Made by a program: the position numbers and the translations under genes. DNA of 64,000 bases from Rhizophagus irregularis. Taxonomy: Eukaryota; Glomeromycota; Glomeromycetes; Glomerales; Glomeraceae. The stretch spans positions 186,001 through 250,000 of the forward strand of contig NC_089438.1 of NCBI RefSeq assembly GCF_026210795.1. Direction: 5' to 3'. The notes under the pieces were generated by a model. That model was not told where the DNA came from. It worked only from the letters and a program-made list of their open reading frames with translations, and ran no database searches. How positions within the stretch are numbered: the first letter of the stretch is position 1; every line of letters begins with the position of its first letter. Below are positions 3,169 to 60,813 of the stretch, one piece after another.

Positions 3169-3866
3169 TTATAATGTCTCATTAGCATATTTACGAGTCC
3201 ATTCCCTAACAGTAGCTTCATAACGATTACGATCAGTCTTGTACAATTGAGATATTTCGGGCATTATATCACATTCTAATTTATTGATAAATTATTTTTT
3301 AGTTGAAATTAATCAGATCATTCAATAAAGTAATGAATGTAAAAAAGTGAATTATAATACCTGGGTTTGGATCTCTCAACAATTGACAAATTTCCGAGAT
3401 TACTTGATAAAATAAAAGATTTGATTAATATTTTTTTTTATAAATATAATAAAAATTCCACATATTATTGTTGGTAATTGCTGGTGATCATTGGTCTCTT
3501 AAGGAATCCACGTCTATACTTCCATTATCAGTAATATCCAGATTGTAGATTCTTAATAAATTGAGTAAATCATGCTATTAAATAACTATACAAGGAAAAG
3601 TATACCTTTGGTGGTTTGAATGGATAATCACTAGGATGACAAATATCAAAGATAAAATATACCTCCAGAGTATGAAGTATTACTTTAATGCAAATTATAC
3701 CGTAACATACAAGCGAAAGTTATTGTAATCTTTACACATGAAGTTTAAAAAAGTGGTAAAATATTACTTACGGGACCCATAATTGACGCCAGTGGAAAAA
3801 GATCATCATCGATAGGACCAACACTAAAAGATGACGGTGGGTCACGACCTAACTCATACAATTCCT
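3169..3866 (-). pseudogene. UBC4/5-type E2 ubiquitin-conjugating enzyme pseudogene
   Basis: Not an ORF call: recognised by piecing minus-strand exons. Exon about 3866-3772 encodes ELYELGRDPPSSFSVGP...IMGP and ends at a good GTAAGT donor. About 3685-3608 encodes SYSGGIFYL then, after a 1-nt frameshift, FDICHPSDYPFKPPK. About 3565-3480 reads like the active-site exon (RIYN..ITDNGSI..DSLRDQ). About 3410-3361 reads EICQLLRDPNP. 3275-3169 reads IMPEISQ then [19 protein letters not shown], with TAA at 3169-3171. The family transfers ubiquitin from E1 to substrates via a cysteine. Here the cysteine (GSIC) is replaced by Asp, the conserved Trp after RDQ is TGA, and the first coding exon was not found. 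Intron positions are kept, so it arose by DNA duplication, not retroposition. Confidence 0.85.
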
Positions 3867-4854: not shown

Positions 4855-6051
4855 CTACAAACAAAAATGTAATTTTAATTTAGGTGAATATTTCATAATT
4901 TTCTCAGATATATCATCTGTATTTACATATGGATATCTATCATCAAAAACTCGTAAACTTTCCAAATATTGACAACTAACAAGAAACAATTTTAATGTTT
5001 CTAATACATCATGTTCAATTCTAATAGAAAGATTTCTAAGATTTGGACAGAACTTCGCTATTGCTAAATCTAATGAATTATCATATAAACCATATGATCT
5101 TGCACAAAATTCTTTTAAATTTTTACCATTATTTTCCAAGAATTTTATTAATATTTCATTCTTTGGACATCTTAAACTAAATATCAAACTTTGTAACCTC
5201 GGAAAAATAACGTATTGTAGTTCATTAAAATCCTCATGATATCTGTTAATAATAATTTTAAATTCAAGTTTTTGTAAATTTGTGAATCTAGCAATAGTTG
5301 ATAATGGTATAGGAACACGTCTTAAATTTCCACGGATAAAAAATTTAGTCAAAGAATTAGTATTCTTTGCTACTAAAGCGATTATATCTGTCAAATCTAC
5401 AATATCACTAGATTGAGTCACATAAAAGTGCTTTAAATTAGGCTGAACAGAAATTAAATTTGCCAAATCATTTGAAGTGACTTCATTGAATACAACTATC
5501 CTTAAAATCTGTATAGTATGACATACTTGAGATAACAGATGAAAAAATCCAGGATAAATATTTGAATTACAGTATAATTTTGTGAGATACTTTAAACAAT
5601 TTTTTGCTCCAGGATATGATGTAAAAATTATTGACGCCGTTTTTATGAATGTTATTTCTCTTAAAGAAGAAATCTGACACATAAGTAATTTGAATATTTC
5701 CTGTGACAACATAGTTATATCATTGCTTAAATTTGGAGATTCCCATTTCTGAAGAAAATGTCCAACATTGTTAATAACTTTATGAACTTCCAAATATTTA
5801 CAAAATGATGCATAATTAAACACTGGAGTTTTTGAAGTTGAAATTGAAATTCCATTATTATGTAAAATTTTTTTTGAATCATTCGGAAGGCAAGCGATTA
5901 AAGTATTAAGATTTCTAATATTTCTCCAGTAAATTCTGACAGAAACTTTACACCAAATTCGATTAACTAATAAGCATGAATACAAAGTCTTTGGATCATT
6001 CTCTAAACACTCAATAATATCGTTAAGGCAATCGACAGAAAAATTTAGCAT
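4855..6051 (-). CDS. F-box/LRR-like protein A
   Basis: Intact single-exon ORF of 398 aa. Residues 1-45 (MLNFSVDCLNDIIECLEND..LYSCLLVNRIWCKVSVRIYW) fit an F-box: Leu/Ile-rich helices, the 'LVNR-W' signature and a closing 'YW'. The remainder has irregular leucine-rich segments (LKHFYV, LRNLSIRIE, LESLRVF) like other fungal F-box/LRR proteins. The family binds Skp1 through the F-box and presents substrates to an SCF ubiquitin ligase; the target is unknown. The start is ATG at 6051, aligned with the internal MLQF starts of the paralogs. It is the most diverged of the four copies in this window. Its divergent neighbour is a kinase relic (7541-7890). Confidence 0.85.
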   Translation of the reverse strand: MLNFSVDCLNDIIECLENDPKTLYSCLLVNRIWCKVSVRIYWRNIRNLNTLIACLPNDSKKILHNNGISISTSKTPVFNYASFCKYLEVHKVINNVGHFLQKWESPNLSNDITMLSQEIFKLLMCQISSLREITFIKTASIIFTSYPGAKNCLKYLTKLYCNSNIYPGFFHLLSQVCHTIQILRIVVFNEVTSNDLANLISVQPNLKHFYVTQSSDIVDLTDIIALVAKNTNSLTKFFIRGNLRRVPIPLSTIARFTNLQKLEFKIIINRYHEDFNELQYVIFPRLQSLIFSLRCPKNEILIKFLENNGKNLKEFCARSYGLYDNSLDLAIAKFCPNLRNLSIRIEHDVLETLKLFLVSCQYLESLRVFDDRYPYVNTDDISEKIMKYSPKLKLHFCL

Positions 6052-7540
6052 TTTAATAGAATTATAGAATTTTCAGACTTTTAAAACAATATAATAGAAA
6101 GAGCGTGTGAATCGCAATTATGGCGTGATTAATTGGCATGCATAACTATTTATTGTGATGATGACATAATATTCCGGCTTTCGGATAAACTTTTAAGCAC
6201 AATTGTCGATCCATTTATCCGTTTTTTTTTTGCGATTAAAAAAAATAAAAAAATTCTCGTACGAGCGATAAAATTTACAAGTATGATGGTCACTGAAACT
6301 TTGTTATTTAATTACAAATATTTTTAAAGTATTCCCGAAAATTAAGTACAAGTTACTTTCTGTCTTAATATTTTTTAAGATAAAAAAAAATTAATAACGA
6401 AAATATTTTAAATTAATTGTATGTACCAAAATGAATGCACAAAAAAATATTTACTGCAATTTAATTTAATTATTTGAATTTATTATATATTATTTCTATT
6501 TTTTATTACAGTCGTGAGTAAAATTTTTTGGAAAATTTCACGTGACTTCAGTCAAGTGTAGGTTGCTTGTTAAAAATTTGCAGATCAAATTGCAATATAC
6601 TTCAACGCTGTACATCTCCAAATAAGAAAAATAACTCTGAAATAAAAAGATTTTATTGAAAAATGATAGCAAAAAAATAAATTTATAATTATGGGTTAAG
6701 AAGTGCAGTATTTGAGTGAAATTTAACTTCATACTATTATGGTTTAAAAAGTTTCGAAACAATAGGAGGATGGGAAGATATGGCTTAAAACCCTAGTAAA
6801 AATCAACTAAAAATGACACAAATATCGCAAAAAATATTATAAGCCAATACATTAGGTAGAATTTTATGATAATGACCAATAATTTAGCTGAAAAGTATTA
6901 GAAACGAATAATAATAATTTTTACTTTTTAGGCATATAATTAAAAAATATTTTCATCACCGTTGGATAGTTAAAAATAATACATTAAAACCTGGTCAAAA
7001 AACTGTAAAAGCTTATTAACAGAAACCTAAGAATATGAAAACCATTAAATTCGGAATGTTGAACGTTAAGGAAGGAATGAAATATTATTTCTAATAAAAA
7101 TATAAATATTTTATTAAATTGATAAAATTAAGTTACGAGGAAATTATTAGGGTAAAGGGAGAGAGGATAATTTTTTAATTGTATATAGTTTAAATCTCAT
7201 GGAATTACACTTTTAAATATATTAAACCAATTGCAAATATAATCACTGGTTGTTGAGTAAATTTACTTTAAAGTTTTCCAAATAATTTTGCTCACCACTG
7301 TACATATTTTAATTATTTATTATTTTTATTTTCTTTGTTTTATACATGACATGGTCAATTTGCACATTAATTGAAATTTCCATTTTTACTATATATTTGA
7401 AATAAATATTAAGTAAATTATTATTATTTTATTTATTAGTCAGGAAACATTTTCTTTTTGTTACTATTTTAAGCATTATCATTTACTATGTTTCTGTCGA
7501 TACTATAATTATACTGGAATTATAATTCCAAATTCTCTTT
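6052..7540. other. Intergenic between F-box A and kinase relic
   Basis: Holds the duplicated F-box 5' flank (GCTTTCGGATAAACTTTTAA near 6177, matched near 12455) and, at about 7320-7500, the same upstream block that precedes kinases D and E (TTTTGTTACTATTTTAAG, then a variant of ATTATCATTTA). No coding exon is visible; 6538-6762 (minus) is a low-complexity ORF I do not support. Confidence 0.5.
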
Positions 7541-9505: not shown

Positions 9506-10705
9506 CTAAAGAAATAATTTTATTTTGGACGAATATTTCATAATAATTTCAGTTAAGCCTTTCTTATTGTAATACTTGTAACCAAAAATTCTAATGCTTT
9601 CCAGATATTTGCAACTAATAAGAATCGTTTCTAATATTTCTAATTCATTATCTTCAATTCTAATAGAAAGATTTCTAAGGTTTGGACAGAACTTGACTAT
9701 CGCTAAATTTAATGAATTATCATTACTTTTAACATAAAATTCTTTTAGATTTTTTCCATTATTTTCCAAGAATTTTTTTAATAATTCATTTTCTGGACAT
9801 TTCATATAAATGTTTAAACTTCGTAACTGCGGAAAAACAACATATTGTAATTTATTAAAACCTTCATAATATTCGTTACTGTAAAATATGAATACAAGTT
9901 CTTGTAAATTTGTGAATCTAGCAATAAATGATAATGGTATTACCGCCTTGAAATAACATTTTATTCCTCCATAGATACGAAGTGTAATCAAAGAATTAGG
10001 AAATTTTGATATCAAAGTATTTATATCCGTCAAATCTACACCATATTTATGCAGACACACTTTCAAGTGCCTTAAATTTTGCAGAGAAGAAATCAAATCT
10101 GCTAATCCATTTGAAATGGATTCATTGAATATTATTCTTAGTGTATGTATAGTTGTTTGACATATTTTAGATAAATGATAAAAAAATTCAGGATAAATAT
10201 TTGAATAGCAACTTAATGTTGATAAATTCTTCAAACAATCTCTCGCCCCAGGATATGATGTAAAAGTTATTGATGTCAAATTTGTTAATGTATATTTTAA
10301 TTCTCTTAAAGAAGAAATCTGACACATAAGTAATTTGAATATTTCCTGTAATACTATAATTGTGATATCATTTAAATTTTGAACTAAAATAGATTTTTGT
10401 TTTCTAAGAAAGAGCTTAATATTTTTAATAACGTTATGAACTTCCAGATATTTACAAAATGATGCATAATTAAACACTGGAGTTTTTGAAGTTGAAATTG
10501 AAATTCCATTATTATATTAAATTTCTTTTGAATCATTTGAAAGGCAAGCGATTAAAGTACTAAGATTTCTAATATATCTCCAGTAAATTCTGACGGAAAT
10601 TTTACACCAGCTTCGGTTGACTAATAAGCATGAATACAAAGTATTTGAATCATCCTCTAAACATTCAATAATATTATTAAGGCAATCGATAGGAAATTGT
10701 AACAT
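9506..10705 (-). pseudogene. F-box/LRR-like protein B, one nonsense codon
   Basis: Close paralog of F-box C and D. From ATG 10705 (MLQFPIDCLNNIIECLEDD) the frame stops at TAA 10519-10517, where the paralogs read KEILYNNG: TTA (Leu) became TAA. It resumes in the same frame to 9506 without another lesion, including the LRR-like part and the end MKYSSKIKLFL. The upstream 28-codon extension open in C and D is broken here by a 1-nt insertion, which argues that MLQF is the real start in all copies. The single lesion means inactivation is recent, or stop readthrough or an assembly error. A reinitiated product from ATG 10477 would lack the F-box. Confidence 0.8.
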
Positions 10706-11161: not shown

Positions 11162-12358
11162 TCAAAGAAATAATTTTATATTGGACGAATATTTCATAAT
11201 AATTTCAGTTAACCCTTTCTTATTGTAATATTTGTAACCAAAAATTCTAATACTTTCCAGATATTTGCAACTAATAAGAATCGTTTCTAATATTTCTAAT
11301 TCATTATCTTCAATTCTAATAGTAAGATTTCTAAGGTTTGGACAGAACTTGATTATCGCTAAATTTAATGAATTATCATTACTTTTAACATAAAATTCTT
11401 TTAGTTTTTTTCCATTATTTTCCAAGAATTTTATTAATAATTCATTCTCTGGACATTCCACGTAAAATTTTAAATTTTGTAACTGCGGAAAAACAACATA
11501 TTGTAATTTATTAAAACCTTCATAAGATTCGTTACTGGAAAATATGAATACAAGTTCTTGTAAATTTGTGAATCTAGCAATAAATGATAATGGTATTACA
11601 GCCTTGAAAAAACATTCCATTCCTCTATAGATACTAAATGTAATCAAAGAATTAGGAAATTTTGATATCAAAGTATTTATATCTGTCAAATCTACACCAT
11701 ATTTATGCTGATACACTTTCAAGTGCCTTAAATTTTGCAGAGAAGAAATTAAATCTGCTAATCCGTTTGAAATTAATTCATTGAGTATTATGCTTAGTGT
11801 ATGTATACTTGTTTGACATATTTTGGATAACTTATAAAAAAATTCAGGATGAATATTTGAAGAACAACTTAATGTTGAGAGATTCTTTAAACATTCTCTC
11901 GCCCCAGGATATGATGTAAAAGTTATCGATGTCAAATTTGTTAATGTATATCTTAATTCTCTTAAAGAAGAAGTCTGACACATAAGTAATTTGAATATTT
12001 CCTGCAACACTATAATTGTGATATCATTTAAATTTTGAACTGAAATATCTTGTATTCTAAGAAAGTGCTCAATATCTTTAATAACTTTACGAACTTCCAG
12101 ATATTTACAAAATGATGCATAATTAAACACTGGAGTTTTTGAAGTTGAAATTGAAATTCCATTATTATATAAAATTTCTTTTGAATCATTTGGAAGGCAA
12201 GCGATTAAAGTACTAAGATTTCTAATATATCTCCAGTAAATTCTGACGGAAATTTTACACCAGCTTCGGTTGACTAATAAGCATGAATACAAAGTATTTG
12301 ATTCATCCTCTAAATATTCAATAATATCATTAAGGCAATCGATAGGAAATTGTAACAT
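11162..12358 (-). CDS. F-box/LRR-like protein C
   Basis: Intact single-exon gene, 398 aa from MLQFPIDCLNDIIEYLEDE (ATG 12358); an in-frame ATG at 12442 adds 28 residues (MHANLCYV...) but lies outside homology with copy A. F-box at residues 1-45 with LVNRSWCKISVRIYW, followed by LRR-like segments (LRHLKVYQ, LQELVFIF, LRNLTIRIE, LESIRIF). Likely a Skp1-binding substrate adaptor of an SCF ubiquitin ligase. It is nearly identical to copy D; both end YSSNIKLFL. It diverges head to head from kinase C with about 1.1 kb between starts. Confidence 0.87.
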   Translation of the reverse strand: MLQFPIDCLNDIIEYLEDESNTLYSCLLVNRSWCKISVRIYWRYIRNLSTLIACLPNDSKEILYNNGISISTSKTPVFNYASFCKYLEVRKVIKDIEHFLRIQDISVQNLNDITIIVLQEIFKLLMCQTSSLRELRYTLTNLTSITFTSYPGARECLKNLSTLSCSSNIHPEFFYKLSKICQTSIHTLSIILNELISNGLADLISSLQNLRHLKVYQHKYGVDLTDINTLISKFPNSLITFSIYRGMECFFKAVIPLSFIARFTNLQELVFIFSSNESYEGFNKLQYVVFPQLQNLKFYVECPENELLIKFLENNGKKLKEFYVKSNDNSLNLAIIKFCPNLRNLTIRIEDNELEILETILISCKYLESIRIFGYKYYNKKGLTEIIMKYSSNIKLFL

Positions 12359-12442
12359 TTTAGCAGGACACTCAAATTTTAACAATTTAATGGAAAGAGT
12401 TTGAGAAATTTGGTTTATGACGTAACATAAATTGGCGTGCAT

Positions 12443-13454
12443 ATTTATTTATTGTCGGCTTTCGGATAAACTTTTAAGCACAATTGTCGATCTGGGCACA
12501 ATTGATAAAAGCATCCGGATTTGACTCGGAATGTCGATCATATGCTTAATAATTAGGTACAATTTTTTTTTTCTTTTTTGTTTAGATGAATAAAATAACA
12601 AAAAAAAATCAATCAAATATCTCAAATATCGCTTGAATTGATTACATGTACAAAAAATGAGAGTATAAAGAATATATACTGTAACTTAATTATTTGAATC
12701 TATATTGTCTATTTCTATTAATATTTATGAAACTATTATTAAACACATATTTGCAATCACATAAAAAATATTGTTTTTTTTTTCACATTTATAATTATTT
12801 TTGGACTATATTATTCAAAGTTGAATTTGCAAAATATGTTAAAAAATTTTTGGCAAATGATGTCTTGCTACAATAAGCTCTTACTGCGTAATGTTTATAA
12901 TTTTTTACATGACGTATACAATTTTCACATTTACTACATTTTCTTTAAAATTCTATTCGTAGGCTAAGAAATATTATTTTGGTTATATATTGGTCGGTAT
13001 AATATTATATATATTTCTGTTGTTATTTTAATAATGTTGATCTTCATGAATAAATTTGTCAATATTAATAAATAGTTTCCAATTTGTATGATAGTTTTGT
13101 ACTTCCTCTAGTAGTTGAATGTTATGGCGCAATATCAGCATTCCATGTTGAGGCAGTCTATTAGGAATGATTTGACATTTTTGACGTCGATCACTCGATC
13201 ATAATACATGGCTCGGTCCTTATGATCACGCCACAATAAATAAGTTATTGGGCAGGGGCTGTATCAGCCTCCGGCCGACACGGCCAACATAAACGCCTCT
13301 TATATTATTGATTCAAACCAATTTGGAAAATATGAATATTATGCACATTGCAGATTGTGAAACAAACTTTAGAGTGTTTTTTAATTTTAATTCTTTTTTT
13401 TTAATTTATAAAATTATATTTTAAGCAAATTTAAAAAATTTTGCCCAAATTATC
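12443..13454. promoter_or_regulatory. Shared divergent intergenic region, F-box C / kinase C
   Basis: No gene. Blocks shared with other copies: GCTTTCGGATAAACTTTTAA (about 12455), a TATGAAAC...ATTATTAA block (about 12725, also near 23505 and 29332), a CTGCGTAATGTTTATAAT-like block (about 12884, also near 23575 and 29492) and, 80-115 bp before the kinase ATG, GCACATTGCAGATTGTG (13339-13355), matched at 29739 and partly at 24699. 13230-13310 is a GC-richer patch with CCGGCCGACACGGCC. Regulatory function is inferred only from conservation and position. Confidence 0.45.
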
Positions 13455-15144
13455 ATGTCAACTATTCGAAAAGAATTGGTTTGGGCTGCAATTCAAAAAG
13501 CATATGTATTAACTGATTATAATATACATGACGATATAGATAAACGACATAAATTTAGAAAACGAGCTATTCTTGCTGATAAATCCCTTACAAAGAATGA
13601 AAAATTAGAAGGAATAAAAAAATTAAATAAAGATTATGATAGTAGTAAAATCCGTTATAATGAAGGAAAAAGAAGATTTTGTGAAGTTTGTAAAGAAAAT
13701 TGCTTAGCAAAGTCATATTGTGAATATTGCATTAGAAATTATTTAAAATCAAAATTTTCAAATTGGACATCTGGAAATAATGATGTTAATGATTTAATTC
13801 AAAAGTGCAAATAAACTCAACTGCTCCTAACAAGATAATTGAATGGATTCCATATAATAATTTACGAAATATTGAATATCTAACCAAAGGTGGTTTTTCT
13901 GAAATTTATACAGCAGATTGGATTGGTGGAAAGATATAAACGATGGAATTCTGAGAAACAGCAACTAAAAATATCCAAAACTACTAGGAAAGTAATACTT
14001 AAAAAGTTAGAAAATGTTGAAGGTGCTGTTGGTTTGATGAGGTATGTAGTAATTTGAATATTTTGAAATAAAAATAATATACAATGATAATATTCTAAAT
14101 ATATTGTAAGCCAAATCTCACCTAACTATATCTAACAAATGGACAGTAATAGTACAATGTTACGGGTTAACTCAAGATCCATCAGATGGAAAGTATGTGC
14201 TTGTAATGAGAAAATTGGATACAAAATTAAGAGAATTTTTACGATGTAATCATAATCAGCTTACTTGGAAAGAAAGAATTAAAATTATTGCTGATATAAT
14301 TAATGCACTTTATTGTCCGGAGCGAAGCGAAGGACAAATATATGTCTACGCACTATGAAAAAAAAATCGATCCCGTGAATTTCTCTGTCCGCCACGTGAT
14401 CGTCACCCAATGAAATCACAAATTTTAGTTTTTCGCTCCGGACTTACAACGGTTCCCGTTTCCTATTAGTATTCAATATGAAAATGCAATTCATAGAGAT
14501 CTACAGTACATTCAGGAAACATATTATATTCAAAACACAATAATTTTTGGCTCATCAGTGATCTTTGACTTTGTGGAACTCCTGATAAACCATTTAGGAG
14601 TGTATATGGAAATCTTCCTTATATTGCACGAGAAGTTATTGCTGGAAAAGAATACACTTTTGCAACTGATATATACAGTATTGCAATGATAATGTGGGAA
14701 ATTTCATCTGGACGACCACCTTTTACTAATTGTGAACATAATTATAGTCTTGCAATGGATATTGTTAACGGTATGAGACCAAAGATTATATCAGGAACTC
14801 CCTTAAAATATAAAAGATTAATGGAGCAATGTTGGGATGCTGATCCGGCAAAAAGACCCAGTATTAGAACTATTGGAAATATGATAAAAGAAATTAACAG
14901 ATTATGTTATCGTAATGTGCCAAATGATGATAGTAATAATATCATTAAAAAACTCTTAAAAATATTTAGAGTATTTAAAAAAACTAAAAAAAATAATAAT
15001 TTGAATAAATCAAGTACAAGTTCAGAAATAATTGTATTAAATAAACAATATTTTAATTTTCTAGATAATGATGAAATATATATTAATCCAAATTTTCATC
15101 CGGAGGAACAAAAAGAATTTGAAATTCCTGATGGTAATTATTAA
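13455..15144 (+). pseudogene. TKL kinase C pseudogene with MITE insertion
   Basis: The leader exon starts MSTIRKELVWAAIQKAY at 13455 and carries the Cys cluster CEVCKENCLAKSYCEYCIRNYL. A small deletion at about 13810 gives TAA at 13812-13814. The frame resumes with EWIPYNNLRNIEYLTKGG, but a second shift occurs at about 13933, the intron acceptor TAGG is changed to TAAG (about 14107), and an element is inserted at 14315-14443 before the HRD. The HRD itself is followed by extra bases. 14686-15144 is open again ([21 protein letters not shown]) and runs straight into NPNFHPEEQKEFEIPD with no intron: the intermediate tail exons are missing. A second tail copy (DDEIYNNQEFEIPDN) lies at 15604-15650. 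Confidence 0.88.
14315..14443. mobile_element. 129-bp TIR element inside kinase C
   Basis: Starts GTCCGGAGCGAA and ends TTCGCTCCGGAC, perfect 12-bp inverted repeats, and contains CCACGTGATCG. It interrupts the conserved stretch between INALxSIH and HRD. About 20 extra bases to the right (ending CCCGTTTCC) are also foreign; TTCCGTTTCCTAGTAATAT near 42050 resembles that edge, so the true right end may be near 14463. No clear target duplication was found. Confidence 0.7.
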
Positions 15145-21825: not shown

Positions 21826-23025
21826 CTACCAAAGAAATAATTTTATATTGGACGAATATTTCATAATAATTTCAGTCAAGCCAGCCTTATTGTAATATTT
21901 GTAATCAAAAATTCTAATACTTTCCAGATATTTGCAACTAATAAGAATCGTTTCTAATATTTCTAATTCATTATCTTCAATTCTAATAAAAAGATTTCTA
22001 AGGTTTGGACAGAACTTGATTATCGCTAAATTTAATGAATTATCATTACTTTTAACATAAAATTCTTTTAGATTTTTTCCATTATTTTCCAAAAATTTTA
22101 TCAATAATTCATTTTCTGGACATTCCACATTAAATTTTAAACTTCGTAACTGCGGAAAAACAACATATTGTAATTTATTAAAACCTTCATAAGATTCGTT
22201 ACTGGAAAATATGAATACAAGTTCTTGTAAATTTGTGAATCTAGCAATAAATGATAATGGTATTACAGCCTTGAAAAAACATCCCATTCCTCTATAGATA
22301 CAAAATGTAACCAAAGAATTAGGAAATTTTGATATCAAAGTATTTATATCTGTCAAATCTACACCATATTTATACTGATACACTTTCAAGTGCCTTAAAT
22401 TTTGCAGAGAAGAAATTAAATCTCCTAATCCATTTGAAATCAATTCATCGAGTATTATGCTTAGTGTATGTATAGTTGTTTGACATATTCTAGATAAATG
22501 ATAAAAAAATTCAGGTTGAATATTTGAACAACAACTTAATGTTGAGAGATTCTTTAAACATTCTCTCGCCCCAGGATATGATGTAAAAGTTATTGATGTC
22601 AAATTTGTTAATGTATATCTTAATTCTCTTAAAGAAGAAATCTGACACATAAGTAATTTGAATATTTCCTGTAATACTATAGTTGTGATATCATTTAAAT
22701 TTTGAACTGAAATATCTTGTATTCTAAGAAAGTGTTCAATATCTTTAATAACTTTACAAACTTCCAGATATTTACAAAATGATGCATAATTAAACACTGG
22801 AGTTTTTGAAGTTGAAATTGAAATTCCATTATTATATAAAATTTCTTTTGAATCATTTGGAAGGCAAGCGATTAAAGTACTAAGATTTCTAATATATCTC
22901 CAGTAAATTCTGACGGAAATTTTACACCAGTTTCGGCTGACTAATAAGCATGAATACAAAGTATTTGAATCATCCTCTAAATATTCAATAATATCATTAA
23001 GGCAATCGATAGGAAATTGTAACAT
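21826..23025 (-). CDS. F-box/LRR-like protein D
   Basis: Intact single-exon gene, 399 aa from MLQFPIDCLNDIIEYLEDD (ATG 23025; ATG 23109 would add the same 28 codons as in copy C). F-box at residues 1-45 (LYSCLLVSRNWCKISVRIYW), then LRR-like segments. It differs from copy C by scattered substitutions (SRN for NRS, CSNIQPEFFYHL for SSNIHPEFFYKL), so it is a recent duplicate. Predicted SCF adaptor. Head to head with kinase D across 1.76 kb. Confidence 0.87.
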   Translation of the reverse strand: MLQFPIDCLNDIIEYLEDDSNTLYSCLLVSRNWCKISVRIYWRYIRNLSTLIACLPNDSKEILYNNGISISTSKTPVFNYASFCKYLEVCKVIKDIEHFLRIQDISVQNLNDITTIVLQEIFKLLMCQISSLRELRYTLTNLTSITFTSYPGARECLKNLSTLSCCSNIQPEFFYHLSRICQTTIHTLSIILDELISNGLGDLISSLQNLRHLKVYQYKYGVDLTDINTLISKFPNSLVTFCIYRGMGCFFKAVIPLSFIARFTNLQELVFIFSSNESYEGFNKLQYVVFPQLRSLKFNVECPENELLIKFLENNGKNLKEFYVKSNDNSLNLAIIKFCPNLRNLFIRIEDNELEILETILISCKYLESIRIFDYKYYNKAGLTEIIMKYSSNIKLFLW

Positions 23026-23109
23026 TTTAGCAGGACACTCAAATTTTAACAATTTAATGGAAAGAGTTTGAGAAATTTGGTTCATTACGTAACATAAATT
23101 GGCGTGCAT

Positions 23110-24787
23110 ATTTATTTATTGTGTAATGCTGCAGAATTTATCGGCTATTGGGTAAACTTTTAACTTTTAAGCATAATTGATTGTCGATCCATTTATCCGT
23201 TATTATACTTTTTATTGTATAACGATTGAAATGTCCTCGTCATTTGAGTAAATTTACAAGTATGATGGTCGCTGGAACTTATTATTTGATTACAAATATT
23301 TTTTAAAGTATTCCTGAAAGTTAGGTACAATTTACTTACTGCCTTAAATTTTTTTTGTAAGATAAAAAAAATTACTTATTATTTGAATTAATTAAATACA
23401 TAAAAAATATTCGCGGTAATTTAATTATTTTAAATTTATTATATAGTATTATCTCTAATTTTAATTACAATTCTTATTATAATTCGTCCAATTTATTAAT
23501 ATTTATGAAACAATTTATTAATTCAAAAAAATTTACAAATAAATAATTTTAAAAATTTCGCTCCATACTGCCTGTACTACGCAATATTTATTATTATAAA
23601 TAGTATTGATTGATATTTTAACATTTAATACATATTTCTGAAATTCTTATTTTTTATTAATTTTTCGCTTGAATATTAACTGTTAATAAAATTATTATTT
23701 TAGTTATCAAATCGGGAAACAATATTTTTGTTACTATTTGAAGTATTACCATTAAAGCTAAGCTTCTGTAGGTACTAATAAAAATTTTTATTTTTTAAAA
23801 ATAGTTCATCATAATGTTTGTACTTCCTCTAATAATAATTGAAAATGATATTCCACATTTATTATTTTTAATTGGCAATCCGGATAAAGATCGGCACTTT
23901 GATTTTGGGGATAAGGTACTTAATAAAATTAAATCTACTGTGCATAGAAATAATTATAAATTCGAAGAATTGATTTTTGAGCTTATAAGAAAGTACCTTT
24001 TATATTTTAAGAAAATCTTTGAAAATTTGTCAAAAAACACTTAATTGGTATATGTACATATATAGTAAAATAAATCAATAATTATGCTTTAATATTTATG
24101 ACTTAACCATATACGCAGCTCAGATTCCAAAATGATAAAAAATCATAATAAATTTGCTCCAAAATTTACTAATACGTTTGTATAGCGATAATGCCAATCT
24201 TATCCAGATTGGCAATTAATTGTTTTTTTATTCTAACGTATCGATTTAACATACATGAGCAGATACAATAATACTATCATATACACTGTTATCTGATGTA
24301 TAAAATTAAAGTGACCTATTTAAAAAAAAAATAAAACAAATTTTTGTACTAAAAAGTACATTGTTGCCGATGAATTAACTAAGCCTTCCTGAGCATGTCA
24401 CCTATCTATCTTGGTCACATGATCAAGATCGCCGCGGCACATTTTTAACAGGTTTAACGGATAAATTTATTCCAGAAGTACTTACATACGATACTATTGG
24501 TCTTCTAAAATCCGAAATTTTCCTTTTTTATCCAGAAGAACGAGCTTATATCCTGTTTTGCTGCGCCATCCAGAAAAATGAAAAATGACCAAAAAAACCG
24601 AAAACGGTAGGACCAAAAAAACGAAAACAAATATAAAAACGTAAAGAATAAACTACCCAAAGACTATAGATATCAATTTGAAAATATGTAATTTATTCAA
24701 ATTGTAGATTAATTAAGCAACTTCGGTGTTTAAAAAATAAAAAAATTATTCTAAATCTTTTTTTTTAAAAATTTGTCTAAATTTACT
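23110..24787. promoter_or_regulatory. Divergent intergenic region, F-box D / kinase D
   Basis: Carries the same blocks as the region between F-box C and kinase C: a variant TCGGCTATTGGGTAAAC (about 23140), ATTTATGAAACAATTTATTA (about 23502), TACGCAATATTTATTATT (about 23577), TTTGTACTTCCTCTAA (23816, also near 13099) and ATTGTAGATTAATTAAG (about 24701). It also holds a small ORF (23814-24044) and the hairpin GCCAATCT/AGATTGGC near 24191-24212. Confidence 0.45.
23814..24044 (+). CDS. Small hypothetical ORF in kinase 5' flank
   Basis: 76 codons from ATG 23814 (MFVLPLIIIENDIPHLLFL). No recognised domain. Its beginning is shared with the flank of kinase C near 13096, where the frame is not kept, so it is more likely upstream non-coding DNA that happens to be open than a gene. 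Confidence 0.15.
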   Translation: MFVLPLIIIENDIPHLLFLIGNPDKDRHFDFGDKVLNKIKSTVHRNNYKFEELIFELIRKYLLYFKKIFENLSKNT

Positions 24788-26979
24788 ATGTCAACTATTC
24801 GAAAAGAATTGGTTTTCTATATGATAAATAAAGCATTTATATTAACTGATTATAATATTTACGATAATATCGAAAAACGACATGAATTTAGAAAACAAAC
24901 TATTCTTGCTGATAAATCCCTTACGAAAGAAGAAAAATCAGTAACAATAAAGAAATTAAATAAGAGTCATGACTGTAGAAAAATCCGTTATAATGAAGGA
25001 AAAAGAAGAGTTTGTGAAGACTGCAAAAATGAATGTTTGGCAATATCATATTGTGAATATTGTATTAGAAATTATTTGAAAGCGAAATTTTCAAATTGGA
25101 CGTCTGGAAATAATGATATTGATGATTTAATTAAGAAATGTCAAATGGAATCACGTGCTCCTGACATGATAGTTGAATGGATTCCATATAATAAATTTCA
25201 AAATATTGAATATCTAACTAGAGGTGGTTGTTCTGAAATTTATACAGCAGATTTGATTGGTAGAAGATATAAAAAGTGGAATTCTGAGCAACAACAACTA
25301 ATATTATCTAAAACTATTAGGAAAGTAGTTCTTAAAAAGTTGGAAAATATCGAAAACGCTAATAGAAGTTGGTTTGATGAGGTATGTAATATAAAAAAAT
25401 GATAGAAATTAAAAACAAATTAAAAATTAAGATACTTTAATGTTTTGTAGGCCAAATCTCATCTAACTATAACTAGCGAATGGTCAAACGTAGTACAATG
25501 TTATGGTTTAACCCAAGACCCACTAGATGGGAACTATATTCTTGCAATGAGAAAATTAGATACTAATTTAAGATAATATTTACAACGAAATCATAATAGA
25601 CTTACATGGAAAGAGAGAACTAATATTGTATATTATGTAAATCGTTCACTTAGTAGTATCCATAAAGGAAATGCAATTCATAAAGATTTACATTCAGGAA
25701 ATATATTATATCATCAATATAGTAATATTTGGTATATTAGTGATCTTGGATTTTGTGGGCCTGCTGATAAACCATTAAAAAGTATATATGGAAATCTTCC
25801 TTATATTGCGCCAGAAGTTATTGTCGGAAAAGGATATATTTCTGCATCTGATATATATAGTATTGCAATGATAATGTGGGAAATTTCATCTGGACAGCCA
25901 CCTTTTGCTAATTATGAAGATGACTATGATCTTGCAATGGATATTGTTAATGGTATGAGACCAAAGTTTGTATCAGGAACTCCTTTAAAATACAAAGAAT
26001 TAATGGAACAATGTTGGGATGCTGATCCAACAAAAAGACCTGATGTTTATTCCATTCGGAAGAAAATAAGAGAAATTAATAAATCATATTATGAAAACGC
26101 TCCGGAAAATTTTAAAAAAGTCAATAATTTAGAAATATTAAGTTGTTATTATTACGCAAGTAGTAAATTATCTATAAGTAAAATTTATCAATTTGATAAT
26201 TTACCTGAACCAAGAAATGCAACTGAAGGTACATTTTAAAATTGTAACGGTTTAATATTTAAATTAATTTTTAATTACCATTTTTTTTTAAAAAAAAAAT
26301 AATAATAGAAGGGCAAGAAGGTATACATTTTATCATATTCGTAAAATCTTTTTAAAATTTTTAAATATAATTTAATGGAATATTCATTATTTATTTTTTA
26401 AAGCTTTCCATAGTAAACCTTATAGTTTCAATATCCCTGAAAATAGTAGTAGTAAGTATTTCCCATCTGAAATTTTTCTTAGTTAATGATTCATCAAAAT
26501 AAATAGTATTTACTAATCATTTAAATTTCGCTTAAAAAATCACAATATATTAATCTTGTATTAAAAATATATAAGTACTACAATAATAGTAAGTAATTAA
26601 TGCATATGTCAAAACATAAACTTTGATTAAATAAGGCAATGATATTTTTTAGAAAGTAATAATCGATGTCGTATTTTATACAGAGTAGTATAATTAAAAT
26701 AATATAAAAGAGAATTTTAAAAACAACAAATAAAGCAGCAAGATTCTGACGATATGCAAATGTTTATAAATTTAGTAGTAGAAACATAACATAATCGTAT
26801 TATTTAATTATATTTTACTTTACAGATAATGATGGCATTTATAATAATCCAAATCTTCATCCAGAAGAACAAAATGAACTCGAAATTACTGATGGTAAGT
26901 AAATACATTTAATTATGACAAAATAATTTCAAAATTAATTCAAACTACTAATTTTTAATTTATTTTAGACGGATTTTAA
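24788..26979 (+). pseudogene. TKL kinase D, one nonsense codon
   Basis: Exon 1 is 24788-25381 (start MSTIRKELVFYMINKAF) with the Cys cluster CEDCKNECLAISYCEYCIRNYL, a weak Gly loop YLTRGGCSEIYTAD and the Lys strand VVLKKL. The intron is 25382-25450; exon 2 starts AKSHLTI at 25451. At 25574-25576 TAA replaces the Glu codon of LREYL-type sequence; after it the frame is open through the rest of the kinase domain to 26229. The catalytic loop reads HKDLHSGNIL instead of HRD. Tail exons are recognisable (FHSKPYSFNIPENS at about 26404-26451, DNDGIYNNPNLHPEEQNELEIT at about 26825-26894, terminal DGF at 26969-26979). Probably a recently inactivated copy; readthrough or an assembly error cannot be excluded. 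Confidence 0.85.
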
Positions 26980-29293: not shown

Positions 29294-29869
29294 CTACACT
29301 TCATATTCTAATTTATCCAGTTTATAAATTTTTATGAAACGGTTATCATCGCTCATCTGATTTTATCTTAAAAAGTGTATTGTTTTTACATTTTATGGTT
29401 ATTTTGACAGTATTGTTTAAAGTTATAATTCACATGTTATACGGTATATATTAGAAAATATCGATACGTCAAGCTTGTACTGCGCAATATTTATAATACT
29501 ATGAATATTATGCATGACGTGACTTTAATTTGAAGTAACCAATATCTTGCTAAACCATAATTATTATATCTCTTTAATAATCTTGTTCCCCTTATTTTAT
29601 TCACAGATAAGGTTAGGAAAATTATTATTTTAGCTATTCAATCAGATGACGTTTTCTTTTTCTTTTTTAATATAACAGATAATAAATAATTAAATGTGAC
29701 GTAATGATATTCCATATTTCTACCAATTTAGGAATATGCACATTGTAGATTAGTGAAACAAACTCCGGAGTTAAAAACCGTAAACATCGTCTAACGAAAA
29801 AAAAAGTTTTTATAACTAACTTTTTTAAATTTAAAAAATTTACATTTTAATCTTTTCTTCTAAGTTACT

Positions 29870-32183
29870 ATGTCAGCCGCCGTTTATACTGTTCTTAACA
29901 AAGCATATGCATTAGCTAATAGTGACTCAGTGAGCGTAGATGAAAATTATAAATCTATGAAACAATTTATTCTTAATGATGAATCTCTAACGGAAAATGA
30001 AAAATTAGAAGCAAAAGAATTATTAAAAAAAGAATATGATTATACTAAAATTCTTTATGATGAGGGGAAAAGAAGAGTTTGTAAAAACTGTCAACAAAAA
30101 TGTTTAGCAAAATTATATTGTGAATATTGTATTAGAAATTATTTAAAATCAAAATTTTCAAGTTGGACATCTGAAAATAATGGTATTAATAATCTAATTC
30201 AGGAATGTCAAATGGATTCACGTGCACCAGATAGTATTATTGAATGGATTCCGTATAATAATTTACAAGATATCAAGTATCTAACTGAAGGTGGATTCTC
30301 TGAAATCTACAAAGCAGATTGGATTGGTGGTCGATATCATGAATGGGATTCAAAAGAACAACAATTAAAAAGATGTGGATCCATGGAAATTATACTTAAA
30401 AAGTTAGTAAATATTGAAAGGGCTGATAGAATCTGGTTTGATGAGGTATGTAATCTAAAAGTGTTTTAAAAATCAAAATAATATTTAAATTATAATACTT
30501 TTAATATTTTGTAGGCCAAATCTCACCTAACTATAAGTAATAAATGGCCAGATATAGTAAAATGTTATGGGTTGACTCGAAACCCATTAGATGGAAAATA
30601 TATGCTTGTAATGATGAAATTAGATATGGATTTAAAAGATTATTTACGCCAGTATCATGATCAACTTTCATGGAACGAAAAAATTACAATTGCATATCAT
30701 GTAATTAATGCACTTGATAGTATTCATAAAGAAAATGTAGTTCATAGAGATTTACATTCAGGAAATATATTATATAATCAAAGTTCTAATTATTGGCTTA
30801 TTAGTGATCTTGGATTCTGTGGACCTGTTGACAAGCCATTAGGAGGTATATATGGAAATCTTCCTTATATTGCACCAGAAGCTATAGTTGGAAAAGAATA
30901 CTCATTTGCATCTGACATATATAGTATTGCAATGATAATGTGGGAAATTTCATCTGGACAACCACCTTTTGCTAATTATAAAAAAGATTATAATCTTGCA
31001 ATGAATATTGTCAATGGTAAGAGACCAACAATTGTATCAGAAACTCCTTTAAAATATGTAGAATTAATGAAGCAATGTTGGGATGCTGATCCAAAAAAAA
31101 GACCTGATATTAAAATGTTATCAGATATGATTAATGATATTAATAGGTTATATTACCCAAATGTACCAACTAGTTATAATAAAAAAAATATTTTTAGAAA
31201 ATTCTTAAGAAAATTCAAAAAAACTAACGCTAATAATTTAAATAATGTAAGTACTTCGGAAATAATGAGCTGTTATAATGCAGGACATGCAAGTAAAATT
31301 TATAATCTAAATAATTTGCCAGAACCAAAAAATGCAACTGAAGGTATAATTTAATTTTTTTTCATAATATTGTTGAATTTAAATTAATTACTATTTATTT
31401 ATTTATTTTATGGAAAAAATTATAGAAGAGCAAGAAGGTAAATAGTCTAATGTTTTTAGAATTCTATTTATAATAGTTTTAATATTATTTATTTATTTTA
31501 TTTTTTTAAAAAGCTTTTCATAGTAAACCATATAGTTTTAGTATTCCTGAAAATAGTAAGTATTTCAATTTATAATATTATCATTGCTTATATATTCTAA
31601 TCCTAAAATTTCTTTCTTCTTTTTTTAGTTGATGATTTCAATAAATCAAATGATAAAAATAATAATACATCAAAATCAAATAGTATTTTTAAAGGTGAAT
31701 ATTAGTCATCTAATTTCAATTAAACCCGCAAAATGTATTAATTTTATATTGAAAATATAGGAAATAGTAAAGCACTGTCTAAAGTACTTCAAAAACTAAA
31801 TATAGGGCCAAGTAATAGTGAGTAAATAACGCAGATACTGTATATAATTTTTTTTTATTAAAGCAAAAACTTCGACTAATGTAATTATACTATTAGATAA
31901 TCAAAATTATCATGAAAGAAGTATTATAAATCAACAAGTAAAGAATCAAGATGTTGATGGTGTGTAAATTTAGCAAATTTAGCAGTAACATAATATATCG
32001 ATATCATTATACTTATATTTTTATTTTTTAGATAATGATGAAATTTGTAATAATCCAAATCTTCATCCGGAAGAACAAGAAGAATTCGAAATTCCTAATG
32101 GTAATTAAATTCATTACTACAAAATAATTTCAAAAAAATTAATTCTAAATATTAATCTTTAATTATTATTAGATGGGTTTTAA
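29870..32183 (+). CDS. TKL-type protein kinase E, intact, 9 exons, 574 aa
   Basis: Exons: 29870-30445, 30515-31343, 31426-31437, 31514-31555, 31629-31694, 31761-31817, 31897-31959, 32032-32100, 32173-32183; the total of 1725 nt is exactly 575 codons. Leader residues 1-130 carry a Cys cluster (C71, C74, C78, C84, C87) with YCEYCIRNYLKSKFSSWTS and EWIPYN, typical of Rhizophagus kinases. Kinase domain about 137-400: EGGFSEIYKA loop, Lys in IILKKL (K177), HRD 269-271 with HSGN276, D290-L-G in place of DFG, then IAPE and MWEISSGQPPF. All catalytic residues are present. The tail is encoded by phase-1 exons of 12-69 nt and ends ...PNLHPEEQEEFEIPN-DGF. It has no divergent F-box partner in this window, but its upstream blocks match those of kinases C and D. 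Confidence 0.92.
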
Positions 32184-47499: not shown

Positions 47500-50400
47500 A
47501 TGACTTCGGTAAAAGAATGGATTGAGGAAGAAATAAAGAATGAACACATTCGTTATTTTGAATATGATAAATTTAGTCAAATCAACGAAATTGGTAAAGG
47601 AGCTTTCGGTAAAGTGAGTAAAGCGTATTTGGCTAATACGGGATTGGTCGCATTTAAAATTCTTTTTAGTAAAAGTTCAAAAGAGGAAATTAATGAGGCT
47701 AATGATGAGTTTGTTAAGGAGGTAGGAATCGCTTTTTAGTCAGTATGTTGTACAATATATTTATTATCTTGGTAAAACAAATTTAATATTATATACACAC
47801 CATTTTTTTTAGTTAAAACTTCTTCGCGAGGTTAAATATCATCAAAATATCAATCGTATTCTAGGAATAACAAAAGGTTCATATCAAAGAATTTTACTAA
47901 ATAATTTATTTACAAAGTTCAATATAACTTACTTATATTTAAATTGATAGATTCCGAGAATTATATTTTAGTGTTGGAATATGCCAATGGTGGAAATTTA
48001 AGAAATTATTTGAAAAAAAATTTTGTTTCATTGAAATGGAATAATAAAGTTAAAATGGCATTGGATATTGCTAGTGGATTGAAATTTTTACACTTAAGAA
48101 AAATAATTCATAGAGATTTGGTAAAGTAGTATTTATTATAATATTTTGTTTGTGATTTTTGCCTTTGATGATGATTAATAAATACAGTCAATCATTTTAT
48201 AGCACCCAAAAAATATATTAGTGAATAATGGAAAATTATTAATTGCAGACTTTGGATTATCTAAAAAATTGGAAGAAGTTATGACTAATTCGATTGCTAA
48301 TAGAATGGGAATGATTGAATATATTGAACCACAATGTTTTAAAAATATCGATATCGGGTATAAAAAAGATAAAAAGTCCGATATTTATAGTTTAGGTGTT
48401 TTATTATGGGAAATTTCAAGTGGACGTCCTCCTTTTTCTAACTGTTCACAAGATGTACGAAAAATAATTGACCGTTACATTAGAGATGGTCATAGAGAAA
48501 AACCAATTGAGGGTACACTTCCAACATATCAACAACTTTATCAAAAATGTTGGGACGACAAACCAGAATCAAGACCAGATATTGAAGAAGTATATGAAAT
48601 TTTAAGTCAATTAAATAAGGATTCTTTTGATCTACTATCTCTGCAACCTATTAATGTTGATAACACGGGAACTGATGATAATGACGACTTAGATATTCCT
48701 TCTGATTATCTGGATCGTCACGCTAAAGATAGTCATAAAGAAAAACAAATTGATGGTTCATCTTCAAAATATCAAAGACTCTATCAAGAATGTCAGGATG
48801 GTGAAACAAAGTCAAGTCCTGATATTGGAGGTATATGTAATTTAAATACTGATACAAAATAATTTAATGTAAACAATGAATTTAAAGAAAAACTGATGAT
48901 TTTAATTTAGTTGTAGATAAGCTTAAATTGGAAAAAAATTGTTATATGGAATGGTTAGAAAAATCAATTGCCGAAGAATTTATCACGTCTTATGAATATT
49001 CAGAATTTAAAATATTACAAAAGATAGGAAAAGGTTCATTTGGAAGCGTCCGTAGTGCTTCTTGGAAAAATACTGATCAAGTTTTTGCTTTAAAATGTTT
49101 CAATGGTGATAAGACAACATTAAAAGAGATTGTCAATGAGGTATTAAATTTATAACGATTTTAAAATATTTTTTTTTAATTGTTTATTAATTTAATACTT
49201 TTACAGATAAAATTACATAAAAGAGTGGATTTTCATGAAAATATTTTACGATTTCATGGAATAGCAAAAGTGAAAAAAACTAGTAAGTGCTTAGTGTTTA
49301 TATGTATTATGCGTATTATTGTAATTAAGGTATTTTTTGGTGACCTAAACTTTTTTTAATGCATATTTAGATACAATTCAAAAGTACGCATTGGTTTTGG
49401 AATTTGCTGATAGCGGCACATTAAGAACTTATTTAAGTGATCATTTTAATGAACTCAAATGGGATGATAAATACCGGTTTGCATTCCAACTAGCAAGTGC
49501 GATGGCGTGTATACACGAATGTGATATCATTCATCGTGATTTGGTAATAATTTGAAATATTATGATTTTAATATTGATTTTAGCTGATTAATATTAAACT
49601 CTTTCATTTTTAAATTAAAATAGCATGCTGACAATGTATTTGTACATCAGAAAAAGATAAAACTGGCCGATTTTGGTTTATCAAGAAAGATTGCTGCATC
49701 GAGTAATAATCCAAATATGTTTGGTTTGATACCTTATATCGATCCAAAAAGGTTAAAAGATCAGCAAAATTATAAACTAAATAAAAAATCTGATGTCTAT
49801 AGTGTTGGTGTTCTAATGTGGCAAATTTCAAGTGGATATCAACCATATAGAAATGATAGTTATGACGTAAGTTTAGCCATATCAATAATAAATGGAAGAA
49901 GAGAAGAAATTATTGATGGAACTCCTGCTGAATATAGTGAATTATATAAAGGTAATAAATAGTTATTTATTTTTTAATTAATGTTAAAATTAAATTTTAT
50001 TTGGTTTATTTAATTAGAATGTTGGAAAGATAAACCACGTGAACGTCCAAATATGCAAGATATTGTTTCAACTCTTAAAGCTTTGATCTCTTCCGAAAAA
50101 AATAGCATGAACTTGCAACCAAAAATGTCAAGTAAGGTAATTTATATTAATGTGAATATTTTTGAAAATAAAATATTTATAAACATAAATTAATTTACAG
50201 AACCAAGATCAATAAATTTCATGTCGCAAAAAGAATTTAATGCTCAATATTTGAATGAGAAAGAGATAAATATTGTTAGTAACAAAAGCATATTTGGTTT
50301 CTTTAAATCACAATTAGAAGGTTCTTTAAAAATAGAAGGCTTTAAAAATTTAGAAATTATTAGTTTGAAGGATTTTAAGTTAACTGGTTTGGAAATAAAT

Positions 50401-50622
50401 GGTTGTTCTCAACTTAATAAGGTTTACTTGTCTGAACTTACTAAACTTACGAGTTTAACTGTAAGCGATTGTCCAAAACTAACCACGGATGATTGTTCGT
50501 TAATTAAGTTAACTAGTTTGCAAAGTTTGAAAATAATCAATTGTCAGCTCCTTTTACAACAGCTTACCGAATATTTAAAAATTTCCAGATTCTTGAGCAA
50601 TATCGATTGTAAATTTTGTTAG
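47500..50622 (+). CDS. Tandem dual-kinase protein with LRR-like C-terminus (predicted 808 aa)
   Basis: Ten exons by splice sites: 47500-47721, 47813-47876, 47951-48120, 48203-48830, 48911-49140, 49207-49282, 49371-49543, 49624-49951, 50018-50131, 50201-50622. They sum to 2427 nt, exactly 809 codons. Kinase 1 (residues 25-290): [10 protein letters not shown]53, HRD 149-151, N156, DFG 168-170. Residues 325-361 are a decayed second copy of its last subdomain. Kinase 2 (390-660): [10 protein letters not shown]423, HRD 518-520, N525, DFG 537-539. 670-808 has LRR-like repeats ([29 protein letters not shown]). Both kinases look active. The intron at 48831-48910 (GTATAT...TTTAG) joins them in frame; if it is retained, the first product ends at TAA 48862 and a separate kinase could start at 48943. 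One donor (47877, GTTCAT) is unusual. Role: signalling kinase, target unknown. Confidence 0.8.
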
Positions 50623-60129: not shown

Positions 60130-60735
60130 TTACTCGTAATTGACATAATTGACAAAATTATTGAAACACACTTCGCAGAAGTATGGCTCAATAGAATAAT
60201 TGTCAAAATTGAAGAAATTATCTACTGATGTAGAAAATTGGTAAGAATAATCGGGGATTTGAATGTAACTTGGAAAGTATAGATGCGGTGGTCCAAATTG
60301 GTAAGAAAGGTCGGAAAAGACTGGAATATAATTTGGGTTAACAACATTGTTATCGGTAATTCCGGAAGGTGAGTTATCTTGTAGGCCCAGAGACGATGAC
60401 TCATTGATGAGTACTAACTTTTCCTTCTGCCTAATTTCTGTTAGGCGATTTTCCACTTGTTTGGATAGATCTTCATAAGCATCCCTTACTGAAGTCGTTT
60501 CGTTGAACCACATCGAACTAATGTAAGACGATATTTTCGTCATAGACACATTTTCATCAGTTCGCTTTCTAAGCTCTTTAAGGAAAGCGAGTCTATATAT
60601 GAGGTATCTATTGGGAGCTTTCGATTTAAGTCTGTCATCAGATCTACTGCTCAAGATTTCTTCAACCGTCAGTTCTGGTGGAAATGGTACTTTAAAGAGC
60701 GGAAGTACATATTTGGTTGATTTTTTAACATTCAT
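60130..60735 (-). CDS. MATA_HMG-type HMG-box protein, 201 aa
   Basis: Start ATG 60735 (MNVKKSTKYVLPLFKVPFPP), preferred over 60801, whose extra residues are hydrophobic and lie next to the TATA box. Residues about 18-105: PFPPELTVEEILSSR, then KSKAPNRYLIYRLAFLKELR, MTKISSYISSMWFNETTSVR and AYEDLSKQVENRLTEIRQKE. This has the P-N-x-x-(I/L)YR, S-x-(W/F) and helix-3 pattern of fungal MATA_HMG boxes, a DNA-bending domain found in mating-type and other regulators and expanded in Glomeromycotina. The C-terminal 95 residues are Pro/Tyr/Phe-rich (FGPPHLYFPSYIQIPDYSYQF) and could act as an activation region. Complete, no intron. Not necessarily the mating-type gene; no homeodomain pair is present. Confidence 0.85.
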   Translation of the reverse strand: MNVKKSTKYVLPLFKVPFPPELTVEEILSSRSDDRLKSKAPNRYLIYRLAFLKELRKRTDENVSMTKISSYISSMWFNETTSVRDAYEDLSKQVENRLTEIRQKEKLVLINESSSLGLQDNSPSGITDNNVVNPNYIPVFSDLSYQFGPPHLYFPSYIQIPDYSYQFSTSVDNFFNFDNYSIEPYFCEVCFNNFVNYVNYE

Positions 60736-60804
60736 TTTCCAAATATTATCAAATGAAGGAAAGAGAATTAGAACTGTAGAAATGAAATGGGGGAAAACCA
60801 ATAG

Positions 60805-60813
60805 CTTATATAT
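60805..60813 (-). promoter_or_regulatory. TATA box of MATA_HMG gene
   Basis: On the minus strand ATATATAAG followed closely by CTATTGG, about 70 bp before ATG 60735; it would leave a short leader and supports the internal start. Confidence 0.5.

Follow-up and report, generated by a model that had tools for sequence, protein, structure and literature searches.

In metazoan JAKs, FERM and SH2-like domains are followed by a pseudokinase and then a kinase, and NLRs combine a NACHT or NB-ARC domain with C-terminal repeats. The WTK-type tandem kinases of plants descend from plant receptor-like kinases. To our knowledge, the purpose of most kinase genes in Rhizophagus irregularis is unknown. Plant tandem kinase proteins (Yr15/WTK1, Pm24, Pm57 and Lr9, among others) are described as having two kinase domains in one protein, some with extra fused parts. 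Work on R. irregularis and its relatives reports an expanded kinase repertoire of 2,533 members (PMC10234402), high-copy kinase genes and mutator-like elements (PMC8647823), AIG1-like sequences (PMC6872716), expansion of AIG1-Hint proteins in Glomeromycotina together with MLKL homologs bearing Sel1 repeats (PMC8778642), an Aig1 gene whose expression rises when a root hosts two R. irregularis isolates (PMC7490403), and a co-expression module that includes both AIG1 and kinase transcripts (PMC6956056); fungal NLR domains are treated in a further paper (PMC12258605). Among the matches listed from the open-licence literature, none concerns tandem kinases or kinase-AIG1-LRR proteins in Glomeromycotina, in agreement with a preliminary description of the present DNA, whose author knew of no account for this fungal lineage.

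The locus examined here lies in R. irregularis assembly GCF_026210795.1, NC_089438.1 (contig 10), within bases 186001-250000 of the forward strand; this whole stretch of 64,000 nt is called the window. We consider it likely, in a reading made jointly with the mechanism proposed below, that positions 47500-50622 (+) form one ten-exon gene for an 808-residue protein composed of kinase 1, a linker, kinase 2 of another subfamily and a short LRR, and that this gene is a shortened member of a family. The ten exons run from the ATG at 47500 to a stop at 50620-50622 and encode 808 aa (809 codons with the stop), as had been proposed from the letters alone. We hold the exon structure itself, as predicted from the sequence, with high confidence. 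Its features are as follows, with K1 and K2 denoting loci of the kinase 1 and kinase 2 types and L numbers denoting loci of the same genome.

47500..47721, + strand: exon 1, with the start ATG, Gly loop and binding Lys of kinase 1 (spliced model and motif positions)
47813..47876, + strand: exon 2, kinase 1 (spliced model; the flanking intron positions recur in K1-type paralogs)
47951..48120, + strand: exon 3, kinase 1, with HRDL at its end (spliced model)
48203..48830, + strand: exon 4, with the catalytic Asn, DFG and C-lobe of kinase 1, plus linker (spliced model, Pfam)
48647..48830, + strand: inter-kinase linker, in which a degenerate repeat of the C-terminal tail of kinase 1 occupies about 48710-48826
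48831..48910, + strand: junction intron, phase 1, donor GAG/GTATAT, acceptor TTTAG
48852..48853, + strand: AT at the place of the relatives' junction donor (a GT donor in six K2-bearing paralogs; AT also in L009)
48911..49140, + strand: exon 5, with the N-terminal lead, Gly loop and Lys of kinase 2; Met374 at 48946-48948
49207..49282, + strand: exon 6, kinase 2 (spliced model)
49371..49543, + strand: exon 7, kinase 2, with HRDL at its end (spliced model)
49624..49951, + strand: exon 8, with the catalytic Asn and DFG of kinase 2 (spliced model and motif positions)
50018..50131, + strand: exon 9, end of kinase 2; the intron before it is found in K2-type but not K1-type loci
50201..50622, + strand: exon 10, LRR tail and stop; DNA homology to L001/L009 up to 50544

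When GT/AG sites up to 10 bases from each of nine approximate introns were enumerated, with nine introns and an end at 50622 imposed, 16 combinations keep an open frame. Four combinations are in frame at the junction (donor 48831 or 48837, acceptor 48910 or 48916). The last intron is 50132-50200 in 16 of 16 (from donors 50132 and 50137 and acceptors 50200 and 50207), so that, given an intron there and the imposed end, the earlier proposal that the last junction needs the GTAAGG donor at 50132 holds. G+C content is 9-25% in the introns and 22-36% in the exons, and the 808 codons contain neither a stop nor a frameshift. Elsewhere in the window, we observe by eye four similar long frames with an F-box/LRR-type look on the minus strand (4855-6072, 9506-10516, 11162-12448 and 21826-23115), further frames of the expanded kinase type on the plus strand (14569-15144, 24755-26239 and 29864-31354), and an open frame resembling an HMG-box protein on the minus strand (60130-60813).

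A Pfam search of the spliced protein, which had been suggested as a check, returns two stretches of PK_Tyr_Ser-Thr (PF07714; 350.8 bits for the whole protein against a cut-off of 23.1) and an LRR below threshold. The Gly loop, Lys, HRD, Asn and DFG reported for each half are present: GKGAFGKV, the Lys in AFKIL, HRDLHPKN and DFG in kinase 1, and GKGSFGSV, the Lys in ALKCF, HRDLHADN and DFG in kinase 2. Both active sites had been called intact, in distinction from kinase-pseudokinase fusions; this stands for the window protein, but the same genome also holds tandems whose first kinase is degenerate on inspection (L010-L013 and L025-L026). Both halves resemble many single-kinase loci elsewhere in the R. 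irregularis genome. The protein is probably cytosolic, since a 19-residue hydropathy scan finds no transmembrane-like stretch (maximum 1.16).

We searched the genome (146,748,485 bases in 32 contigs) with the spliced protein and obtained at least 137 exon-level matches with 56 of 4,365 candidates scored, which makes the counts lower bounds; a search with an AIG1 piece gave 51 matches, with 58 of 58 candidates scored. Domain pieces were mapped on 13 + 15 + 13 genome stretches, and the family counts cover those stretches. The order kinase 1-kinase 2-LRR occurs at four loci (the window gene, L001, L002 and L003), the only ones to unite K1, K2 and LRR among 17 K1-type and 13 K2-type loci mapped. 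An AIG1 GTPase ends L001, L002 and L003, and L001 has another between its kinases. Other arrangements are kinase 1-AIG1-LRR-AIG1 (L007, L008, L009), kinase 1-AIG1-AIG1 (L020, L021), three AIG1 copies after kinase 1 (L023), LRR-AIG1 (twice in L005, and in L006 and L024), and a frameshifted kinase 2 with no kinase 1 within 3 kb upstream (L004). Additional K1-type loci are L029-L035 and additional K2-type loci L036-L041; some of these other K1- and K2-type loci may not be single-kinase genes, because L023, L029, L033 and L041 carry a further, distant kinase piece within the same stretch.

One relative, L001 with L014 (C10:120500-130500), has a spliced reading of kinase-AIG1-kinase-LRR-AIG1 over 1389 codons from ATG to TAA without a stop or frameshift, in which some splice sites are weak and for which the query was largely L001's own sequence. 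A single open frame of 478-743 codons covers both LRR and GTPase in L001 (527 codons), L002, L003, L007, L008 and L009. In the LRR-bearing frame, AIG1 (PF04548, cut-off 27) scores 69.9 bits in L001 and 63.3 bits in L003; the L007 AIG1 reaches 29.9 bits, and the one between the L001 kinases 24.9 bits, under the cut-off. Neither Pfam nor the AIG1-piece search finds an AIG1 match in the window gene. Ten loci (L001-L007, L020, L021 and the window gene) fall within bases 17,000-650,000 of contig 10, and L008, L009, L023 and L024 lie on contigs 5, 25 and 28. We do not call the group a subtelomeric cluster, as TTAGGG/CCCTAA is absent from the first 1,500 bases of contig 10. By this mapping, the window gene is one of four loci with its domain order, the wider family adds AIG1 GTPases, and the window gene is a shortened member of this shuffled family, which lies mostly on contig 10. 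Four further loci, L010, L011, L012 and L013, are kinase tandems of a distant type with two or more kinase pieces each; by eye, HRD/DFG is degenerate in the first aligned domain of all four, and the second appears intact in all but L011.

Whether the two kinases belong to one gene turns on the junction. As a query, the DNA surrounding the L002 junction intron matches eight places, counting L002 itself and the window. All six K2-bearing paralogs (L001-L004, L025 and L026) have a CAG/GTAYA donor there, scoring 8.8-9.8 bits in a matrix built from 97 family introns with the junction introns left out (median 8.4 bits). In the window, this donor is mutated to AT at 48852, and transcripts could consequently retain the intron and stop at the TAA at 48862. 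The donor at 48831 keeps the phase and scores 9.9 bits, above the median; the alternative at 48837 scores 0.3 bits. The preliminary description was therefore right that intron 48831-48910 keeps phase, but its donor is a shifted one, 21 bases upstream of the place used by the relatives. The eighth place, L009, where kinase 2 is mostly lost, shares both the AT and the upstream GTATAT; on inspection, an in-frame TAA directly follows that GTATAT, as expected if the piece is now intronic.

Two adjacent single-kinase genes, the first ending at TAA 48860-48862 and the second starting at ATG 48946, would account for several of these features: without the junction intron, the window frame does stop at 48860-48862, the relatives' donor is mutated, and Met374 supplies an in-frame ATG. 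In addition, the automatic spliced alignment of L002 crossed its junction with one stop and one frameshift and left the intron unused, although the L002 intron joins in frame when read manually. However, the gap from stop to start would be only 83 bases, and the window ATG stands 2 codons before the Trp of a WLEKS-like stretch, at a position where paralogs read T, I, A or S, whereas six of six single K2 genes have their own ATG 12-18 codons before the conserved Trp or its equivalent (hand count). Moreover, five of the six junction-bearing paralogs (L001, L002, L003, L004 and L025) lack an ATG in the stretch from the last in-frame stop to the kinase 2 Gly loop; in L026, an in-frame ATG precedes kinase 2, and a stop lies inside the kinase frame. 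The strength of donor 48831 and the coding periodicity of the linker (GC1 0.55, GC2 0.34, GC3 0.15) likewise speak against separate genes, and we regard that arrangement as very improbable. One fused gene is the better-supported reading of the sequence, because the junction intron recurs in paralogs, the second kinase there mostly lacks an upstream ATG, and dN/dS is below 1 for both kinases; the kinase-kinase-LRR order of the paralogs likewise favours the original proposal of one gene over two neighbors. Details of splicing vary among alignments of the relatives: two alignments place the L001 junction intron at 3634-3725 and 3656-3720, and the C-terminal part of L002 gives no clean splicing pattern.

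The two halves of the fused gene have distinct histories. Three kinase introns of K1-type loci occupy matching places, and a fourth kinase intron is present in 13 of 13 K2 rows and 0 of 17 K1 rows. In a tree of 30 rows, K1 and K2 separate with support of 100/100, and the seven K2s linked to the junction make up a single clade (100/98). This intron difference and split led us to discard an internal duplication as the source of the tandem; by intron content and phylogeny, two kinase subfamilies are fused. A single clade of tandem-gene K1s was not retained, as among all K1 rows the L001 K1 clusters with L009 (100/99) and the L003 K1 with L007 and L021 (84/94); the single-change result for the tandem K1s leaves out 19 ungrouped rows.

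The same junction and K2 also occur behind a different front kinase in L025 (C21:3762000-3766500) and L026 (C10:3127000-3132000). That front kinase retains HRD and has IANFK at the DFG place, which is pseudokinase-like. In L025, an MLKL_N-like stretch scoring 20.0 bits, under the cut-off of 27, precedes it, and Sel1 repeats follow K2 (178.5 bits); the front of L025/L026 is possibly of a cell-death type. Because these loci show the same junction and K2 behind another front, the K2 module has, as judged from these alignments, been combined with kinases of two kinds through one phase-1 intron. The window gene would have arisen when two kinase genes were joined through this common intron. No match to the L001 GTPase exon is found within the window gene, and a deletion between repeats of the kinase 1 tail is a plausible way for that exon to have been lost.

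The LRR-like repeats first noted in the tail find support in homology, but the tail itself falls under Pfam cut-offs (LRR_4 15.5 bits against 27). We name it LRR after L001: the exon 10 protein shows 71-72% identity to its counterpart there, and the longer C-terminal frame of L001 does exceed the LRR_4 cut-off (35.0 bits against 27). If bases of local composition were drawn independently, 142 codons in a row would be free of stops with a probability of ~1e-6; the base periodicity of the tail (GC1 0.29, GC3 0.25) gives little coding signal. Its DNA homology to L001/L009 stops at 50544, with scattered matches of up to 40 bases beyond. The protein could instead be a tandem kinase without a working LRR, with the last intron read through, exon 10 untranslated or incidental and the protein ending at 50193. 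The unspliced frame does stop at the TAA after 50190 (ORF 50014-50193), the matching L009 segment is open, and the sub-threshold Pfam score fits such an end. We nevertheless find this quite unlikely, given the identity of exon 10 to L001, where LRR and GTPase form one frame, and the existence of the in-frame splice 50132-50200, for which an intron and the end at 50622 were imposed.

Substitution patterns bear on whether the LRR-bearing gene is maintained. Against L001, L002 and L003, dN/dS is 0.60, 0.56 and 0.45 for kinase 1 and 0.28, 0.32 and 0.52 for kinase 2 (Fisher p <=0.025), and both kinases appear to be kept under constraint. Constraint on the LRR is uncertain, with values of 0.48, 0.46 and 0.59 (p = 0.13, 0.028 and 0.11, two of the three not significant) and 1.28 against L009. 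A decaying fusion, in which the donor mutation leads to partial intron retention and the loss of LRR and GTPase sequence leaves a dying or dominant-negative relic, would agree with the lost donor, with the end of homology to L001 at 50544 and the lack of an AIG1 match after it, and with the existence of broken relatives (the L004 frameshift and the L026 stop). Against this stand the uninterrupted 808 codons, the intact motif sets and low dN/dS of both kinases, and the strong in-phase replacement donor, and we judge decay unlikely.

We propose a putative cytosolic sensor. The LRR tail would bind a ligand or partner protein, binding would bring copies together or release the kinases, and the two kinases would phosphorylate each other and downstream proteins; in the relatives, assembly would in addition come under nucleotide control through the AIG1 GTPase, a step that the window copy would have lost. 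This scheme draws on the analogies of GIMAP assembly and plant tandem-kinase signalling, and we offer binding by the LRR and signalling by the kinases tentatively, as somewhat likelier to be wrong than right. More speculatively, and with a good deal less confidence, the contig-10 cluster could comprise lineage-specific intracellular sensors built like NLRs, with kinase outputs, AIG1/GIMAP in place of NACHT/NB-ARC, a variable LRR detector, and modules (the second kinase, GTPases and MLKL-like fronts) exchanged via introns, the window gene being the GTPase-less two-kinase form. If so, the window gene might serve self/non-self or partner recognition in arbuscular mycorrhizal fungi. The cluster of kinase/AIG1/LRR fusions offers a concrete set of candidate internal receptors, the common phase-1 intron would be one likely route for reassembling such proteins, and receptor-like recognition of partners or other strains by these fungi becomes testable with these genes.

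Compared with the described systems, the family shares AIG1 with the AIG1-Hint proteins, and its K2 module occurs at L025 with features of the MLKL-Sel1 proteins (an MLKL_N-like stretch, a pseudokinase-like domain and Sel1 repeats); the available part of PMC8778642 makes no mention of kinase-AIG1-LRR combinations. Yr15 and Pm24 are described in the accessible accounts as kinase-pseudokinase proteins, whereas the window protein has all catalytic motifs in both domains. The additions also differ from those of plant tandem kinases, being an LRR tail in the window gene and AIG1 GTPases in its relatives, and the nearest relatives found for the two halves belong to separate subfamilies of the R. irregularis genome searched. 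Among PDB matches of the two halves, 7t6f, a 1,173-residue "Tyrosine-protein kinase" chain that we take to be JAK1, ranks 2nd and 5th. The predicted window protein shares tandem kinase domains with JAKs, but Pfam finds neither FERM nor SH2 in it and the motifs of its kinase 1 are not those of a pseudokinase; closer to the JAK order are L010, L012 and L013. With NLRs, the fuller relatives share a nucleotide-binding domain, repeats and a signalling domain. NACHT/NB-ARC is not among the Pfam families listed for the window protein or for the C-terminal frames of L003 and L001 (for L001, 25 of 27 families, with nSTAND3 at 18.1 against a cut-off of 27.2), and the relatives differ from NLRs in that their nucleotide-binding part is AIG1, placed after the LRR as well as before it.
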